The notes beneath the pieces were generated by a model. It did not search any database, had not been told where the DNA came from, and worked only from the letters and a program-made list of their open reading frames with translations. The position numbers were made by a program, and so were the translations under genes. A stretch of 64,000 bases of DNA from Salipiger mangrovisoli (lineage in GTDB: Bacteria > Pseudomonadota > Alphaproteobacteria > Rhodobacterales > Rhodobacteraceae): assembly GCF_015223355.1 (NCBI RefSeq), contig NZ_JADFFK010000010.1, positions 1 to 64,000 on the forward strand. Reading direction: 5' to 3'. Position 1 is the stretch's first letter. Every line of letters starts with the position of its first letter. Below, one piece after another: positions 2,141-55,769 of this stretch.

Positions 2141-3054
<914 letters not shown>

Positions 3055-3146
3055 GCCACAGCACGGATCACAGTCTCGCGCGCCCATTGTGAAGCGGCGC
3101 GCGAGTGCCTAGTTTGTTTCGGAACACCTCTTTCTCCGGAACACGA

Positions 3147-3842
3147 ATGAACACCCCCTTCGACGACAAGCCCCGCCGCCCCGGCATCTTCGCGAGCCTG
3201 CGGGCCAGCTTCCTGACCGGGCTGGTGGTGATCGCGCCGGTCGGCCTGACAATCTGGCTGATCTGGACCCTGTTTGGCTGGGTCGACGGCTTCGTGCTGC
3301 CGCTGGTGCCACAGCGCTTCAATCCCGAGGAATACATCGGGATCAACCTGCGCGGCGTGGGTGTGATCTTCTTCCTGGTCTTCACCATCGTCGTCGGCTG
3401 GGTGGCCAAGGGGCTGATTGGCCGCTCGCTCATCCGTTTTGCGGAAACGCTGGTGGATCGCACCCCGGTGGTGCGCTCGATCTATTCGGGCATCAAGCAG
3501 ATTGCCGAAACGGTCTTTGCCCAGTCCGAGCGCAGCTTCGAGAAGGCCTGCCTGGTGCAATATCCGCGCAAGGGCATCTGGGCGATCGGCTTCATCTCGA
3601 CCCCGGCCAAGGGCGAGATCCTCGCGCGGTCGGACGTGATGGGAGAGTTGATCTCGGTCTTCGTGCCGACCACGCCAAACCCGACCTCGGGCTTTCTGCT
3701 CTACTTCCCCGCCGAGGATGTGGTCGAGCTGGAGATGACCATCGAGGACGCCGCGAAGCTGGTGATCTCGGCGGGCCTCGTCTACCCGCCCGAGAAGCCC
3801 GGCGACAAGCCCAAGGTCGAGCCGGTGCGCCGCGCCGGCTGA
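3147..3842 (+). CDS. DUF502 family inner membrane protein
   Basis: A 231-residue integral membrane protein of the DUF502 family, whose function is not established. Two long hydrophobic segments are visible near residues 17-45 (ASFLTGLVVIAPVGLTIWLI) and near 67-90 (GVGVIFFLVFTIVVGWVAKG), followed by a soluble domain with the family's RTPVVRSIYSGIKQ motif and FVPTTPNPTSG near residues 170-180. I chose ATG 3147; a GTG at 3105 would add 14 residues that do not look like the family. It is convergent with the UdgX gene, with only two bases between stop codons. In plants a DUF502 relative affects membrane organisation, which does not help with a bacterial role. Confidence 0.85.
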   Translation: MNTPFDDKPRRPGIFASLRASFLTGLVVIAPVGLTIWLIWTLFGWVDGFVLPLVPQRFNPEEYIGINLRGVGVIFFLVFTIVVGWVAKGLIGRSLIRFAETLVDRTPVVRSIYSGIKQIAETVFAQSERSFEKACLVQYPRKGIWAIGFISTPAKGEILARSDVMGELISVFVPTTPNPTSGFLLYFPAEDVVELEMTIEDAAKLVISAGLVYPPEKPGDKPKVEPVRRAG

Positions 3843-3844
3843 GG

Positions 3845-5284
3845 TCAGTCAAGGCGGGCAAGCATCTCTGTCGCCTTGCGCAAATCGGCCTCGTAAAGCG
3901 CTTCTGCCGCCGGGCGTTCGGCCTGCGGCAACCGCAGCAGGTAGGACGGGTGCAGGGTGATCAGCACCGGCGTGCCGTCCTGCGCCACTTCGATGCTGCC
4001 GCGCCGATCCATGAGCCCCCGCCGATCGCCGGTCAGGCTTTCCACCGCCGTCGCGCCCATGGCGAGGATCAGCTTCGGCTTCACCCGGCTCCGCTCGATA
4101 TCGAGCCACCAGCGGCAGTGCTGCACCTCGCCGCGGTTCGGCGCCTGGTGGATCCGCCGCTTGCCGCGCGGCGTGAACTTGAAGTGCTTCACCGCGTTCG
4201 TGACATAGGCCTCGCGCCGGTCGAGCCCCACCCGGCCGGCGATCACGTCGAACAGCTGCCCGGCCGGGCCGACGAAGGGCCGCCCCTCGAGGTCTTCGAG
4301 ATCCCCCGGCTGTTCCCCGACGATCATCAGCGCGGCCTCCTGCGGCCCCTCGCCCGGCACCGGTTGCGTCGCGTCCTGCCAGAGCGGGCAGCGGCGGCAG
4401 CCATCGAGCGCGCGGCGCAAGTCGGAAAGGTCGCCCACCGCGCCGTCGTTCGGTCCGTCCGGCACCTCTCTCAGACGCGAGGTGATCCGCCCGGCGCGTT
4501 TCGGCGCCAGCGTCGGCGCCGCCTCTGCCATCTCGCGCGCCCGCGCCTGCGCGGTGGCGACCATCTCTGGGATCAGCCGCGTTTCGGGCATGTTGTGCCA
4601 GTATTTTTTCGGCATCTCCGCCTGCATCGCCTTGAGCTTGACCCGCGCCGGGTTGAAGATGTTGCGGAAATAGGTGCGCCAGAGATCCTCGGCGGCATCC
4701 TCGGGCAGATCGGGTCGCGCCGCGCCGGGCGCAAGCCGCAGCGCGCCGCCCTCGAAATGCGCCGAGAGGTCGGGGGTGTAGATCGCCCAGTCCATGTCGC
4801 CGAAACGCTTCACGAAGAACGGCGCGGTCAGTTCGAGGATGTAGTGGCTCGGCTCGAACCAGGCGGCAAAGCTGCGGCGGTTGGCACCAGCTTGCCCGAT
4901 CTCGCGGAAGCGGACGAAGGCGGTCATCTTGTGGCGGTCGCGGCTGACCTCCTTGGCCATGCGGGTCAGCTTCTCGACCCGCGGATCGCCGCGATCCTCG
5001 AGCAGGCGCTTCTCGCGCCGCAGTGCCCAGAGCAGCGCGTAAAGCCGGGCGAAACGTTCGGGATCGCGGTGCCAGACCACCAGCCGCGCCAGATCGACGA
5101 AGCCGCGCGGGACCGAGACCGGCGCGCCGCTGACCGGCGGCAACGCCTCGGCGAAAAGATCGCCCTCGCCCTGCCCGCGCTGCCAGAGCAGCTCCTCGGG
5201 CGGCACGCCTGCGCCCAGAAGGTCCCGCGCCTCGTTGCGCCAGGCCTCAAAGGTGCCGGTCTCGGGCAGGCTCACGCGGCGCAT
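3845..5284 (-). CDS. udgX: UdgX-type uracil-DNA glycosylase fused to an N-terminal DUF4130-like repair domain
   Basis: Residues about 285-479 are a UdgX-family uracil-DNA glycosylase. Visible are a CRRC pair (C296, C299) and C390, matching the iron-sulphur cysteines of the family, motif 1 GEQPGDLEDLEGRPFVGPAG (323-342), the UdgX-specific loop KRRIHQ (375-380) and the HPSYLLR motif (445-451). In studied UdgX proteins the loop histidine (H379 here) attacks C1' and traps the abasic sugar covalently. Residues 1-270 resemble the DUF4130/TIGR03915 putative repair domain, so this is a two-domain fusion. Its start overlaps the stop of the radical SAM gene (ATGA), so the pair is coupled. A LexA box sits at the head of the operon. 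Assignment of the C-terminal domain is secure; the role of the N-terminal domain is unknown. Confidence 0.93.
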   Translation of the reverse strand: MRRVSLPETGTFEAWRNEARDLLGAGVPPEELLWQRGQGEGDLFAEALPPVSGAPVSVPRGFVDLARLVVWHRDPERFARLYALLWALRREKRLLEDRGDPRVEKLTRMAKEVSRDRHKMTAFVRFREIGQAGANRRSFAAWFEPSHYILELTAPFFVKRFGDMDWAIYTPDLSAHFEGGALRLAPGAARPDLPEDAAEDLWRTYFRNIFNPARVKLKAMQAEMPKKYWHNMPETRLIPEMVATAQARAREMAEAAPTLAPKRAGRITSRLREVPDGPNDGAVGDLSDLRRALDGCRRCPLWQDATQPVPGEGPQEAALMIVGEQPGDLEDLEGRPFVGPAGQLFDVIAGRVGLDRREAYVTNAVKHFKFTPRGKRRIHQAPNRGEVQHCRWWLDIERSRVKPKLILAMGATAVESLTGDRRGLMDRRGSIEVAQDGTPVLITLHPSYLLRLPQAERPAAEALYEADLRKATEMLARLD

Positions 5285-6519
5285 CAGAACAGCGACAGCT
5301 GCTCGGGCGGCGGCGCGAAGCGGGCGCGCAGGTCGGCGGCATCGCCCAGGGCGCGCGGCCGCCAGTCGAGCAGCGTGATGAAGGGTTTCGCCTGTTTCAG
5401 GTTCGCCCCCATGCGCCGCAGGTCGTCATAGCGCAGCGTGCGGTGGCGGCGTGTCGTGAGGATCCGCGCCACGGTCTTGGTCCCCAGCCCCGGCACGCGC
5501 AGCAGCATCTCGCGCTCGGCCCGGTTCACGTCGAGTGGGAACAGGTGCCGGTTGGACAAAGCCCAGGCGAGCTTGGGATCGATCTCGAGGTCGAGATGGC
5601 CGCCCTTGGTGGCCGAAGCGATCTCGTCCACCTCGAAGCCGTAGAAGCGCAGCAGCCAGTCCGCCTGGTAGAGCCGGTGCTCGCGCATCAGCGGCGGCCT
5701 GATCAGCGGCAGCGCGGCCGAGGCGTCGGGGATCGGCGAGAAGGCCGAGTAGTAGACCCGCCGCAGCTTGTAGCCCGAATAGAGCCGGGTCGAGGTGCGC
5801 AGGATCGTCGTGTCATCCGCCCCGTCGGCCCCGACGATCATCTGCGTCGACTGCCCGGCGGGGGCAAAGCGTGGCGGGCGCTTGCCGGTGAAGCTGCGCT
5901 CCTTGCCCGCCTCGCGTTTCAGCCGCACATCAGCCATGGCGCGGCGGATCTGCGCCGGGTCCTTTTCCGGGGCGTAATCCTTCACCGCGCGGTCGGTGGG
6001 CAGCTCGACGTTGATCGACAGCCGGTCGGCGTAGAGCCCCGCCTCCTCGATCAGCTCGGGCGCCGCGTCTGGGATGGTCTTGAGGTGGATGTACCCGCGG
6101 AAATAATGCTCGGTGCGCAGCATCCGGGCGATGCGCACCATGTCGGACATGGTCTCGTCGGGGCTGCGGATGATGCCCGAGGACAGGAACAGCCCCTCGA
6201 TGTAGTTGCGGCGGTAGAACTCGAGCGTCAGCGTCACCACCTCCTCGGGGGTGAAGCGGGCGCGGGTGACATTGCTGCTGACCCGGTTCACGCAATAGGC
6301 GCAGTCGTAGATGCAGAAGTTCGTCATCAGGATCTTCAGCAGGCTGATGCAGCGCCCATCCGGGGCGTAGGCGTGACAGATGCCCGAGCCGGTGGTCGAG
6401 CCGATGCCCTTGCCATCGCGCGAGTCGCGCTTCTGCCCCCCGCTCGAAGCGCAGGAGGCGTCGTATTTCGCCGCGTCGGAAAGAATCGCGAGCTTCTGAT
6501 CGAGGGTCATTCTTGCCAT
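5284..6519 (-). CDS. Putative DNA modification/repair radical SAM protein
   Basis: A 411-residue radical SAM protein of the TIGR03916 type found next to UdgX. The 4Fe-4S motif CIYDCAYC is at residues 69-76 (C69, C73, C76). The preceding region STTGSGICHAYAPDGRC carries extra cysteines. A C-terminal helix-hairpin-helix, LLRVPGLGTKTVARIL, near residues 345-360 suggests DNA binding. The substrate is unknown; repair of a base lesion or removal of a cross-link is an inference from the domains and from the UdgX partner. ATG 6519 lies only about 6 bases beyond the putative -10 element, so the mRNA may be leaderless; ATG 6510 is the alternative start. The LexA box immediately upstream predicts SOS induction. 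Confidence 0.9.
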   Translation of the reverse strand: MARMTLDQKLAILSDAAKYDASCASSGGQKRDSRDGKGIGSTTGSGICHAYAPDGRCISLLKILMTNFCIYDCAYCVNRVSSNVTRARFTPEEVVTLTLEFYRRNYIEGLFLSSGIIRSPDETMSDMVRIARMLRTEHYFRGYIHLKTIPDAAPELIEEAGLYADRLSINVELPTDRAVKDYAPEKDPAQIRRAMADVRLKREAGKERSFTGKRPPRFAPAGQSTQMIVGADGADDTTILRTSTRLYSGYKLRRVYYSAFSPIPDASAALPLIRPPLMREHRLYQADWLLRFYGFEVDEIASATKGGHLDLEIDPKLAWALSNRHLFPLDVNRAEREMLLRVPGLGTKTVARILTTRRHRTLRYDDLRRMGANLKQAKPFITLLDWRPRALGDAADLRARFAPPPEQLSLF

Positions 6520-6521
6520 GC

Positions 6522-6554
6522 GTTCATGATATGTTCACATGAACCCGCGATCAA
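6522..6554 (-). promoter_or_regulatory. LexA (SOS) box overlapping the promoter of the radical SAM-udgX operon
   Basis: On the + strand GTTCATGATATGTTC (6522-6536) is a perfect GTTC-N7-GTTC, the LexA operator of Rhodobacter and its relatives. On the coding (-) strand a -35 TTGATC (6549-6554) and a -10 TATCAT (6526-6531) are separated by 17 bases, and the box covers the -10. The box is also part of a larger inverted repeat, GTTCATG...CATGAAC (6522-6544). The -10 ends 6 bases before ATG 6519, implying a leaderless transcript or use of ATG 6510. The match is direct; LexA control is inferred. Confidence 0.8.
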
Positions 6555-6631
6555 TGGTCCGCTTGGGCGGGGACGTCCAGCTCACGCCGAAGTGTCCCCG
6601 CCGGGCCGTTCAGGGCTGGGTCAGCACCGGG

Positions 6632-7405
6632 TCAGAGCGCCGTCCAGCCACCGTCGACGGAGATCGTCGTGCCGGTGATCTGCGCCGCCGCGTCCGAGCA
6701 GAGAAACACCGCCGTGCCGCCGATTTGCTCGGTGGTGGCGAATTCCTTCGACGGCTGACGCTCGAGGATGACCTTCTCGATCACCTCTTCCTCGCTCATG
6801 TTGTACTTGGCCGCGGTGTCGGGGATCTGCGCCTCGACCAGCGGCGTCTTCACATAGCCCGGACAGATGGCGTTGCAGGTGATCGCCTCCTTGGCCGTCT
6901 CCAGCGCCACGGTCTTCGTCATGCCGACGATGCCGTGTTTGGCCGCGACATAGGCCGACTTGAACGGCGAGGCGGTGAGCCCGTGCGCCGAGGCGATGTT
7001 GACCACCCGGCCCCAGCCCGCCTTGCGCATCATCGGCAGCGCGGCGGCGGTGGTGTGGAAGGCCGAGGTCAGGTTGATGGCAATGATCGCGTCCCATTTC
7101 TCGACCGGGAACTCGTCGATCGGCGCGACGTGCTGGATCCCGGCATTGTTCACCAGGATGTCGCAGGCCCCGGCCTTCTCGATCAGCGCGCGGCAGTCGT
7201 CGCCCTTGGACATGTCGGCCTGAATGTAGCGCACCTCGACACCGAACTCCCGGGCCATATCCGCGGCCAGCTGATGGTCCTCGTCGCGGTCGGTGAAGGA
7301 ATTGAGCACCACCGACGCGCCCGCCCGCGCCAGTTCGCGCGCGACGCCGAGCCCGATGCCCGAGTTCGATCCGGTGACGACAGCCGTCTTGCCCTTGAGA
7401 GACAT
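6632..7405 (-). CDS. bdhA: D-3-hydroxybutyrate dehydrogenase (SDR family)
   Basis: This NAD-dependent enzyme interconverts 3-hydroxybutyrate and acetoacetate, linking polyhydroxybutyrate breakdown to acetyl-CoA. It is a classical short-chain dehydrogenase of 257 residues with TGSNSGIGLG (11-20), NNAG (86-89), catalytic Ser139, Tyr152 and Lys156 (in YVAAK), and the 3-hydroxybutyrate dehydrogenase-type region NAICPGYVKTPLVEAQIP. ATG 7405 follows a GAGGAG ribosome site. Longer versions of the frame reach across the upstream intergenic region and are not supported. No acetoacetate or PHB gene is adjacent. The substrate call is good because the family is well separated from other SDRs. Confidence 0.92.
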   Translation of the reverse strand: MSLKGKTAVVTGSNSGIGLGVARELARAGASVVLNSFTDRDEDHQLAADMAREFGVEVRYIQADMSKGDDCRALIEKAGACDILVNNAGIQHVAPIDEFPVEKWDAIIAINLTSAFHTTAAALPMMRKAGWGRVVNIASAHGLTASPFKSAYVAAKHGIVGMTKTVALETAKEAITCNAICPGYVKTPLVEAQIPDTAAKYNMSEEEVIEKVILERQPSKEFATTEQIGGTAVFLCSDAAAQITGTTISVDGGWTAL

Positions 7406-7758
7406 GCGAAAACTCCTCGAAATGTGCGGCACCGACATGGCACGCCGCCGTTTGGGGTCAGAAGGCCCAGACCTCCCGCGTCCCGCCCCCGCCATTGCTC
7501 TGACATCCCGCCCGAAGCTGCAAGCCCGTGTTCGCAACGTCATCACGGATTCGTAGGGGCGAACTTCGCTGGTCCCCCTAGGCAAGAGCCGCACTGCCCT
7601 GTATGGCTCGGCGCACCGTCGCACACCGACGCCTACGTCTACTCCGTCAGCAGCGCGCCACCACAGCGAGGCGCGAGATCGTCTTGTCCGGCTGGCCATT
7701 TCTGCAATGTCTTGGCTGCACCGGACGACAGGTCCCTCCCGGAAGGTCGTGCAAAACC

Positions 7759-7787
7759 AAAAAAAAACGCCGGCACGAGGCCGGCGT
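7759..7787 (-). terminator. Intrinsic terminator of the candidate small RNA
   Basis: A perfect 8-bp GC-rich stem (7767-7774 with 7780-7787) with loop ACGAG is followed, on the leftward strand, by nine Ts (7759-7767 read as A on the + strand). It points toward bdhA but lies about 350 bases upstream of its start. Confidence 0.85.
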
Positions 7788-7835
7788 TCAGTCATTGAGG
7801 CAGGTTTCATACAGGCAAGAAACCTATCGAGCAGT
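7759..7835 (-). ncRNA. Candidate small RNA of about 75 nt
   Basis: The leftward strand of this 545-bp gap (7406-7950), which holds no protein gene, carries a complete transcription unit. A -10 TATAAA (7842-7847) lies 17 bases from TTGGAC (7865-7870). The predicted RNA starts near 7835 and forms a 7-bp hairpin, AGGTTTC/GAAACCT (7802-7808 with 7819-7825, 10-nt loop). It ends in an 8-bp hairpin, ACGCCGGC/GCCGGCGT (7767-7774 with 7780-7787), followed by a run of Us. There is no open frame within it. The terminator cannot serve bdhA, which starts downstream at 7405, nor the SBP gene, which is on the other strand. I do not recognise it as a named RNA family. The -35 is a weak match. Confidence 0.6.
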
Positions 7836-7950
7836 GATGTCTTTATACGCGCTTTGCTGCCGGAGTCCAACCTAAAAGTTTGAAAAGACGTAAAAGCCCC
7901 GGTAGGCTCGAAAACCAAGAAAACAAGGGCAGAGCAGGACGGTTTCTCCA

Positions 7951-9774
7951 ATGGCCGCAATTCATTTCAAATTATCTCCGATGACGTCCGCGCTGACCGC
8001 GCTGGCGCTGTTCACCGGATTCGCGGCGACGGCGGAACCGATGCATGGCATCGCCATGTATGGCGCCCCTGCCCTGCCCGCGGACTTCGATCACCTGCCC
8101 TATGTCAACCCGGAGGCGCCCAAGGGCGGCCGCATCGTAACCGGCGAAGTCGGCAGCTTTGACAGCCTCAATCCGCATATTCTCAAGGGCACCGTGCCCT
8201 GGCAGCTGCGTTTCCTGGCCTATGAATCGCTGATGGGCCGCAGCTGGGACGAGCCCTTCACGCTCTATTGCCTGATCTGCGAGACGGTCGAGACCTCACC
8301 CGAGCGCGACTGGGTCGAATTCACCCTGCGCCCCGAGGCGAAGTTCTCCGACGGCACGCCGGTGACGGTCGAGGACGTGATCTGGAGCTTCAACACGCTC
8401 GGCACCGAAGGTCACCCACGCTACCAGGGCACCTACAGCCGCATCGAGAGCATCCAGCAGACCGGCGAGCACAGCCTGCGCTTCAGCTTCAACGTGCAGG
8501 ACCGTGAACTGGCGCTGATCGTCGGCATGCGTCCGATCCTCAAGAAGGCGCAATGGGAGGGCAAGGATTTCGCCGCCTCCGGGCTCGACGTGGTGCCGAT
8601 CACCACCGCGCCCTATGTCGTCGACGCCTTCGAGGCCGGCCGCTACGTCTCGCTCAAGCGCAATCCCGACTACTGGGGCAAGGACGTGCCCTTCATGAAG
8701 GGCCAGGCCAACCTCGACGAGGTGCGCATGGAATTCTTCGGCGACGGCACTGCCATGTTCGAGGCCTTCAAGGCCGGGCTGCTGAACTCCAACCGCGAGC
8801 TCAATTCGGAGAAGTGGGAGAGCCAGTACAACTTCCCCGCGGTGCAGAACGGCGACGTGGTGAAATCGGTGATCCCGCACGGCCGCCCCTCGGGGATGAC
8901 CGGCTTCGTGATGAACACCCGCCGCCCCGGCTTCGACGACTGGCGCGTGCGCGAGGCGATGATCCAGCTGTTCAACTTCGAGTACATCAACGAAACGCTG
9001 ACCGGCGGCCGCCAGCCGCGCATCACCTCGTATTTCTCGAACTCCGAGCTGGCCATGCAGCCCGGCCCGGCCACCGGCCGGGTGAAAGAGCTGCTGACCC
9101 CCTTCGCCGACAGCCTGCTGCCCGGCACGCTCGAGGGCTACGAGATGCCCGAGGGCGACGGCTCGGCGCGCAACCGCGCCGGCCTGCGCAAGGCGATGGA
9201 GCTGATGCAGGAGGCGGGCTACACGGTGCAGGACGGGGTGATGATGACCCCCGAGGGCCAGCCCTTCCAGTTCGACATCGTGCTGCCGCAGGGCGAGACC
9301 GAGGCCGGCTCGATGATCGACATCTACGTGCAGGCGCTGGAACGTCTCGGCATCAAGGTGCGCGTCGACACGGTGGATTCCGCGCAGTTCAACGCCCGCA
9401 GCGCCAGCTTCGATTTCGACATGACCTGGTTCCGCCGCGGCATCTCGCTCTCGCCGGGCAACGAGCAGCGTCTCTACTGGGGCAGCGCCGCCGCCGACCA
9501 GGAAGGCTCGCGCAACCTCATGGGGGTGAAAAGCCCGGCGGTCGACGCGCTGATCGAGGATCTGCTGACCGCCACCAGCCGCGAGGAGTTTCTCGCGGCC
9601 ACCCACGCGCTTGACCGGGTGCTCACCGCTGGCCGATATGTCATCCCCACGTACGAGTGGAATCAGAGCTGGATCGCCCACGCCAAGGAGCTGACATTCG
9701 CCGAGCCCACGCCGGTCTACGGCGATTGGATCGACTGGCAGCCCAACGCCTGGTGGTGGGACGACAAGAACTGA
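7951..9774 (+). CDS. ABC transporter substrate-binding protein, family 5 (YejA-like peptide binding)
   Basis: A 607-residue periplasmic solute-binding protein of the SBP_bac_5 family, most like the YejA subgroup that binds oligopeptides or microcin C. The N-terminus (about 1-29) is a signal peptide with a hydrophobic core ALTALALFTGFAATA. The mature part begins with HGIAMYGAPALPADFDHLPY and contains the YejA-type NPEAPKGGRIVTGEVGSFDSLNPH region (about 52-75). Start ATG 7951 is the first in frame and has a weak AGGA upstream; ATG 7981 would also leave a signal peptide. No permease or ATPase genes lie beside it, so its membrane partners must be encoded elsewhere. Confidence 0.88.
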   Translation: MAAIHFKLSPMTSALTALALFTGFAATAEPMHGIAMYGAPALPADFDHLPYVNPEAPKGGRIVTGEVGSFDSLNPHILKGTVPWQLRFLAYESLMGRSWDEPFTLYCLICETVETSPERDWVEFTLRPEAKFSDGTPVTVEDVIWSFNTLGTEGHPRYQGTYSRIESIQQTGEHSLRFSFNVQDRELALIVGMRPILKKAQWEGKDFAASGLDVVPITTAPYVVDAFEAGRYVSLKRNPDYWGKDVPFMKGQANLDEVRMEFFGDGTAMFEAFKAGLLNSNRELNSEKWESQYNFPAVQNGDVVKSVIPHGRPSGMTGFVMNTRRPGFDDWRVREAMIQLFNFEYINETLTGGRQPRITSYFSNSELAMQPGPATGRVKELLTPFADSLLPGTLEGYEMPEGDGSARNRAGLRKAMELMQEAGYTVQDGVMMTPEGQPFQFDIVLPQGETEAGSMIDIYVQALERLGIKVRVDTVDSAQFNARSASFDFDMTWFRRGISLSPGNEQRLYWGSAAADQEGSRNLMGVKSPAVDALIEDLLTATSREEFLAATHALDRVLTAGRYVIPTYEWNQSWIAHAKELTFAEPTPVYGDWIDWQPNAWWWDDKN

Positions 9775-55754: not shown

Positions 55755-55769
55755 GAACTTAAGCGGAAC
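55755..55769 (-). promoter_or_regulatory. LexA (SOS) box of uvrA
   Basis: GAACTTAAGCGGAAC is a perfect GAAC-N7-GAAC, the form known for LexA sites upstream of recA and uvrA in Rhodobacter-type bacteria. It lies 67 bases before the uvrA start. Same class as the box at 6522-6536. Confidence 0.85.

Follow-up and report, generated by a model that had tools for sequence, protein, structure and literature searches.

A predicted LexA-repressed leaderless promoter ahead of a radical SAM/UdgX operon in Salipiger mangrovisoli

Introduction

Can the operator, the promoter and the start codon of a bacterial operon be set by one short sequence? The question is raised by a two-gene operon of Salipiger mangrovisoli, encoded on the minus strand of the first 64,000 nucleotides of contig NZ_JADFFK010000010.1 (assembly GCF_015223355.1), the stretch analyzed here and called the window. 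Its first gene encodes a radical S-adenosylmethionine (radical SAM) protein and its second a fusion of DUF4130 and UdgX. A sequence-only reading of the window had proposed that a GTTC-N7-GTTC box covers the -10 element of a promoter whose transcripts begin at or next to the ATG of the first gene. Our follow-up leads us to regard it as very probable that this DNA-repair operon of two genes is driven by a leaderless promoter under LexA repression, a prediction from sequence and its conservation among relatives.

Operator, promoter and start codon in the window

The elements in question are the following.

6549-6554, minus strand: -35 element TTGATC, a sigma-70-like site with 17-bp spacing to the -10
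6522-6536, minus strand: predicted LexA operator GAACATATCATGAAC, a direct repeat GAAC-N7-GAAC read toward the gene
6526-6531, minus strand: -10 element TATCAT, enclosed by the 7-bp operator spacer
6517-6519, minus strand: ATG start codon, the A of which (6519) is the predicted +1 from the -10 spacing

On the plus strand the operator at 6522-6536 reads GTTCATGATATGTTC (GTTC-N7-GTTC), and inspection of the sequence confirms that this box covers the -10 of a TTGATC-N17-TATCAT promoter. Operator, promoter and start codon fit in one 38-bp stretch. Two sigma-70-like sites occur in positions 3600-7600, this promoter (6554 to 6526 on the minus strand) being one of them, against a mean of 0.1 in shuffled sequences, and the composite TTG-N20-TANNNT-N6-ATG has its single occurrence in the window at 6517-6554, where 0.04 are expected and 4 of 100 shuffles contain one. 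In standard numbering a -10 hexamer occupies positions -12 to -7. Counted from the A of the ATG at 6519, the hexamer observed here has its last base at -7, so that the predicted start point is 6519 itself and the start codon of the message is AUG. Position 6519 is also the earliest possible ATG, GTG or TTG start, because an in-frame TGA ends 15 nt upstream.

Conservation of the box among orthologues

The radical SAM family TIGR03916 was found above its cut-off in 18 of 289 genomes sampled from the class and 58 of 295 sampled from the family, and a scan of named genomes contributed the best 80 loci of a longer list. The loci used comprise 18 from the class, 57 from the family (56 over the cut-off plus L117, a split copy that scores below it) and, from named genomes, the 80, giving 155 in total and 148 after 7 duplicates were dropped. 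In 142 of these 148 distinct orthologous loci a perfect box falls within the stretch from -200 to +45 around the expected start (17/18 in the class sample, 54/57 in the family sample and 71/73 in the named genomes). Three reversed or permuted patterns occur in 2, 3 and 1 of 148 when searched for in the same stretch, the box itself occurs in 0 and 1 of 148 in two in-gene stretches, and the highest control overall reaches 5/148. The sequence-only reading had staked itself on GAAC-N7-GAAC recurring upstream of relatives, and this recurrence is what was found.

Beyond the class, TIGR03916 exceeds its cut-off in 84 of 398 genomes of the phylum, 29 of which belong to other classes by our own count and are presumably beta- or gammaproteobacterial. 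The LexA motif of beta- and gammaproteobacteria is CTGT-N8-ACAG. Upstream DNA was read for 20 of the 29 orthologues, and 14 of these carry a perfect CTGT-N8-ACAG and 2 more match 7 of its 8 bases; in-gene and far-upstream controls yield 0 perfect copies and 7/8 matches in 1 and 2 of 20. An operator shared by UdgX genes that stand away from a radical SAM gene was considered and rejected, with the box present in 1 of the 14 such loci read (15 given). Because a LexA-type box precedes 142 of 148 alphaproteobacterial loci and a different LexA-type box most of the 20 from other classes, and because the box is rare where UdgX stands apart from the radical SAM gene, it would be the pair, rather than UdgX alone, that takes part in the damage response.

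Promoter-to-ATG spacing and the two registers of the operator

To describe the geometry in relatives, the distance from the end of the box to the first in-frame start after it was recorded for all 142 boxed loci. This distance is 1-7 nt in 113 loci, 9 nt in 1, 13-16 nt in 19 and 17-31 nt in 9, where L189 and L154 are filed in the close register owing to an extra ATG (for which the next starts are 14 and 16 nt away). For L118, whose frame is broken further on, the ATG adjoining the box was assigned manually as the start. Alignment on the ATG of the close-register loci with the box in GAAC orientation (n=110) shows that T occupies -35 in 76% and -12 in 67%, with A at -11 in 72%. In three further loci the box is inverted (GTTC) and lies 1 nt from the start, each with TANNNT at -12. 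The far register (n=19) differs in that the box sits in the gap between the -35 and the -10, and here A at -11 is present in 19/19 loci, TA at -12/-11 in 17/19 and the full TANNNT at -12 in 10/19, against a background TA rate of 1.6%. The spacing from promoter to ATG thus appears to be kept while the operator moves. Across all registers, TANNNT lies at -16 to -11 in 85 of 142 loci; of those 85, a TTG precedes the -10 at a distance of 16-18 bp in 65 (exactly 17 bp in 45) and of 15 bp in another 12.

The spacer of the box itself contains TANNNT in 73/110 close-register loci versus 2/19 far-register loci (Fisher p 5e-6, a value that is only indicative since the loci are related). An AT-rich spacer preference of LexA is insufficient to account for the TANNNT within the box, as 17 of 19 far-register loci do without it; further evidence against such a cause is that the far-register TA lies outside the box and that the boxes before lexA, recA, uvrA, a helicase gene and a polymerase-like gene of the same genome all lack TANNNT in their spacers. 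The far-register TA, kept at -12/-11 in 17 of 19 loci, thus supports the leaderless reading independently of any spacer preference of LexA. Helical phasing was likewise set aside as a cause of the two registers, since a 15-bp box can sit on the -10 or between -35 and -10 without disrupting either. In a tree built from the proteins of 140 of the 142 boxed loci (L118 and L048 left out), far-register changes number 9 as filed and 7 without the two doubtful rows (L189 and L154), and the changes forced by supported branches are 7 on the tree as filed, doubtful rows included.

Among boxed loci of the family sample, 52 of 54 fall in one of the two registers. In the window's family this geometry is thus the typical one; across the class it is frequent without being universal. 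The predicted start at or next to the ATG at 6519 is supported by its -10 spacing and by the far-register TA, and the leaderless geometry also by the 113 of 142 boxes that end 1-7 nt from a start.

Genes of the operon and a proposed course of events

The two genes are arranged as follows.

5284-6519, minus strand: radical SAM gene, TIGR03916, putative DNA modification/repair radical SAM protein with a CX3CX2C motif
3845-5284, minus strand: TIGR03915/DUF4130 and UdgX (TIGR03914) fusion gene with the motifs GEQPG, GKRRIH and HPSYLLR

Both proteins score above the curated cut-offs of their families, the radical SAM protein with 583.6 bits against 343.5 for TIGR03916 and the fusion protein with 312.1 bits against 189.95 for TIGR03914. 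The cluster cysteines 69, 73 and 76 of the CX3CX2C motif are invariant in 31 aligned radical SAM sequences, and a PDB sequence search with this protein returned no relatives at E 0.1. We take TIGR03916 to be equivalent to COG4277, and to our knowledge the radical SAM partner of UdgX is without an established role. The UdgX part aligns with M. smegmatis UdgX at E 5.3e-48 with GEQPG and GKRRIH both covered, and a column count over aligned UdgX sequences finds GEQPG in 22/22 and the R-loop histidine in 21/22. The ATG of the fusion gene overlaps the stop codon of the radical SAM gene (TGATG). Among the 145 loci where 1400 nt or more of downstream sequence is available, 144 have a udgX following on the same strand.

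The box, the promoter, the start geometry, the gene families and their conservation are read directly from the DNA. From these we infer a course of events in which LexA binding, damage induction, the 5' end of the message and translational coupling are all predictions. In the absence of damage, LexA on GAAC-N7-GAAC would cover the -10 and block RNA polymerase. Upon damage, RecA-driven cleavage of LexA would free the promoter, and RNA polymerase would begin transcription with the A of the ATG. The resulting message would be leaderless; the radical SAM gene would be translated from it, with translation of the DUF4130-UdgX gene coupled through the TGATG overlap. UdgX would trap uracil sites covalently through its R-loop histidine, while the radical SAM enzyme would process a base lesion or a trapped site during the damage response.

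Several observations of variants touch these genes. The radical SAM frame of Alloyangia mangrovi (L118), the closest named genome at 97% identity among the best 80 loci of the named-genome scan, looks broken, the match length being no multiple of three, and the frame of another relative (L249) ends at 235 amino acids; the promoter is apparently intact in both. In the UdgX of Gluconacetobacter liquefaciens (L162), glutamine replaces the R-loop histidine; the H109Q mutant of M. smegmatis UdgX is reported to acquire ordinary uracil-DNA glycosylase (UDG) activity (PMC10359453). In the protein tree, the Acetobacteraceae copies and a copy from an Afifella metagenome-assembled genome (L162, L172 and L163) are grouped with loci of Paracoccaceae and of the family, nested among them, which suggests either operon transfer between families or misbinned contigs.

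Points against the prediction and alternative explanations

A number of results weigh against a LexA-repressed leaderless promoter, or limit its reach. No perfect box is present in 6 of the 148 loci (L033, L086, L113, L117, L152 and L167); four of them (L086, L113, L152 and L167) retain 7 of 8 box bases near the start, yet 12/148 in-gene stretches equally reach 7/8. TANNNT lies exactly at -12 in only 54/142 loci, against 85/142 for -16 to -11, and the far-register loci L034 and L104 lack TA at -12/-11. The box lies 9 or 17-31 nt upstream in 10/142 loci, some of which have Shine-Dalgarno-like leaders (for example L043 and L046), rhizobial loci with distances of 4-7 nt have predicted leaders of a few nucleotides, and 7 of 17 boxed loci in the class sample lie outside both registers. 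Anti-Shine-Dalgarno energies in the close group average -3.5 kcal/mol, slightly better than the -2.6 kcal/mol of shuffled sequence, with 5% of the 110 at or below -6; these energies give no clean separation and do not demonstrate that a Shine-Dalgarno site is absent. A second in-frame ATG is present at 6510, 9 nt downstream of the first. Finally, the box count alone was rejected as evidence, the genome-wide number being near that of the reversed-pattern control.

The alternative that survives best accepts LexA control and gives the message a leader, whether through an upstream start, through read-through from the dehydrogenase-like gene that lies upstream on the same strand, or through translation from the ATG at 6510. 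That second ATG, the upstream gene and the ten relatives with more distant boxes all favor such a message. We nonetheless consider it improbable, as the -35 and -10 are correctly spaced to the ATG at 6519 in a composite that is unique in the window, 33 of 110 close-register loci have no alternative start codon, and the TA of the far-register -10 keeps its distance to the ATG in 17/19 loci.

A second alternative holds that a regulator other than LexA reads GAAC-N7-GAAC at this site, and draws on the box alone being barely above chance genome-wide, with LexA binding here a prediction. This is very hard to reconcile with the setting of the box elsewhere. The genome encodes LexA and RecA, and perfect boxes lie 38 nt before lexA and 51 nt before recA, with boxes of the LexA type 40 nt before a UvrD/PcrA-like helicase gene and 26 nt before a Y-family-polymerase-like gene (L226 and L227), the last two identities having been scored on fragments and below curated cut-offs. 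These sites come from the 45 of 119 genome boxes examined (30 loci and 15 chosen for AT-rich spacers), so the list of damage genes is partial. The same box type precedes uvrA in the window:

55755-55769, minus strand: uvrA box GTTCCGCTTAAGTTC, 66 nt before uvrA with the repeat in opposite orientation, a comparison site

The uvrA box had been put forward as an internal positive control; it is real and serves as such for the box type, but not for the leaderless geometry, given its distance and orientation. Orthologues in other classes bear CTGT-N8-ACAG in place of GAAC-N7-GAAC, which also argues against another regulator. For Alphaproteobacteria, PMC8565304 names GTTC-N7-GTTC as the motif of LexA.

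It is barely credible that an AT-rich -10 and chance GAAC words together produced the box, for although the genome holds 119 boxes against 104 for the reversed pattern, the box is present in nearly all orthologues and almost none of the controls (0-5/148) and persists where the -10 is no longer covered. In the window, 4 boxes compare with 1.24 expected and 5 of 100 shuffles reach 4. The case for the predicted operator is carried by position and conservation, not by count.

Specificity of the composite motif

The motif TTG-NNN-N(16-18)-TANNNT-GAAC-NN-ATG was searched for in the S. mangrovisoli genome and 60 relatives. It has 1 match in the S. mangrovisoli genome (0 for the reversed control) and, over the 61 genomes, 21 matches in 21 of 61 genomes, compared with 3 for the reversed pattern. 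A full box is present in 15 of the 21, namely at 14 radical SAM genes (that of S. mangrovisoli included, and one with a broken frame) and 1 lone UdgX; the remaining 6 have a half box and other or no clear genes. At the lone UdgX (L239/L324, genome G004) the same fusion of -35, box, -10 and ATG is seen, with GAACGTATAGTGAAC 2 nt before the ATG, and the profile scan of class genomes did not find TIGR03916 in this genome.

Relation to known systems

Control of a UDG/radical SAM pair by the SOS response is already reported or predicted elsewhere and is not new. For a two-gene COG1573-COG4277 operon of Bacteroidetes, LexA control has been inferred (PMC8565304). The same paper cites Erill 2016 and da Rocha 2008 for reports of SOS-regulated UDG-based repair in Verrucomicrobia and Alphaproteobacteria. 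That pair resembles the present one in combining a uracil-DNA-glycosylase family gene with a two-gene operon under LexA, the motif in Alphaproteobacteria being GTTC-N7-GTTC, whereas the parts of PMC8565304 consulted make no mention of a fusion of operator, -10 and start, of leaderless geometry or of two registers. The earlier claim that LexA ties the radical SAM/UdgX pair to the damage response is accordingly supported by the conservation of its predicted operator but is not a novelty. A LexA regulon table of Streptomyces venezuelae includes vnz_31145, which is listed as a radical SAM protein (PMC9380542).

Among the papers listed in searches of the open-licence literature, none was seen to report this leaderless fusion of operator, promoter and start. 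What comes closest is an operon of Rhodobacter sphaeroides, acuR-acuI-dddL, a leaderless transcript with TTGATT and TATTAT elements and its +1 at the AUG by rapid amplification of cDNA 5' ends (5' RACE), in which a repressor operator also overlaps the promoter and for which a similar arrangement is predicted in other bacteria (PMC3017554). In contrast to the operon studied here, its regulator is the TetR-family AcuR, which responds to acrylate, its first gene is the repressor and its function is not DNA repair (PMC3017554). Leaderless messages have been catalogued in Caulobacter crescentus (375) and Sinorhizobium meliloti (171) (PMC4117421, PMC3616915); these catalogues show that Alphaproteobacteria make such messages and are genome-wide lists, unlike the single-operon case here. 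Presumed repressor sites near or overlapping the transcription starts of damage-induced repair genes are also described for the radiation/desiccation response motif (RDRM) of Deinococcus, which is not a LexA site and belongs to different bacteria and a different motif (PMC8072749).

The UdgX of M. smegmatis (PDB 6ajo/6ail; PMC10359453) shares GEQPG, KRRIH with the crosslinking histidine and the HPS motif with the protein encoded in the window, which differs in being fused to DUF4130 and paired with a radical SAM gene and for which crosslinking is a prediction. UdgX has been proposed to protect abasic sites (PMC10359453). The substrate of its radical SAM partner may be a base lesion or the trapped site.

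A bolder reading, which we regard as doubtful, is that the 38-bp arrangement of -35, operator, -10 and ATG is a portable damage switch in which leaderless translation itself has been selected. If true, the start would stay at the AUG whether the operator lies over the -10, in the -35/-10 gap or inverted, the repair enzymes would be made when leader-dependent initiation is impaired, and the operon would work at once in a new host. Two published results speak against it, namely that normally growing Caulobacter translates its leaderless mRNAs with roughly the same efficiency as the rest (PMC4117421) and that leaderless acuR is translated at about 7.5% of acuI (PMC3017554). The 38-bp architecture nonetheless offers a small test case for the question of whether leaderless initiation can be part of a stress response.

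Additional features of the locus and genome

One further element lies between the upstream dehydrogenase-like gene and the promoter.

6566-6602, minus strand: strong GC-rich hairpin without a T run

The fold of 6555-6625 has a z of -2.5, with 4 of 200 shuffles as good, and the terminator/promoter scan made no terminator call for the hairpin; an Rfam search of 3000-8000 gave no match. Masking of the AUG by a hairpin on read-through RNA was rejected, as that fold is not significant (z -1.0). A function as an insulator against read-through is possible. Elsewhere in the genome of S. mangrovisoli, a box (L211, C44:146315-146340) lies within a few nucleotides of the point where a gene resembling a metallophosphatase, by reading of the sequence, may start; this box is possibly a further target or a chance occurrence.

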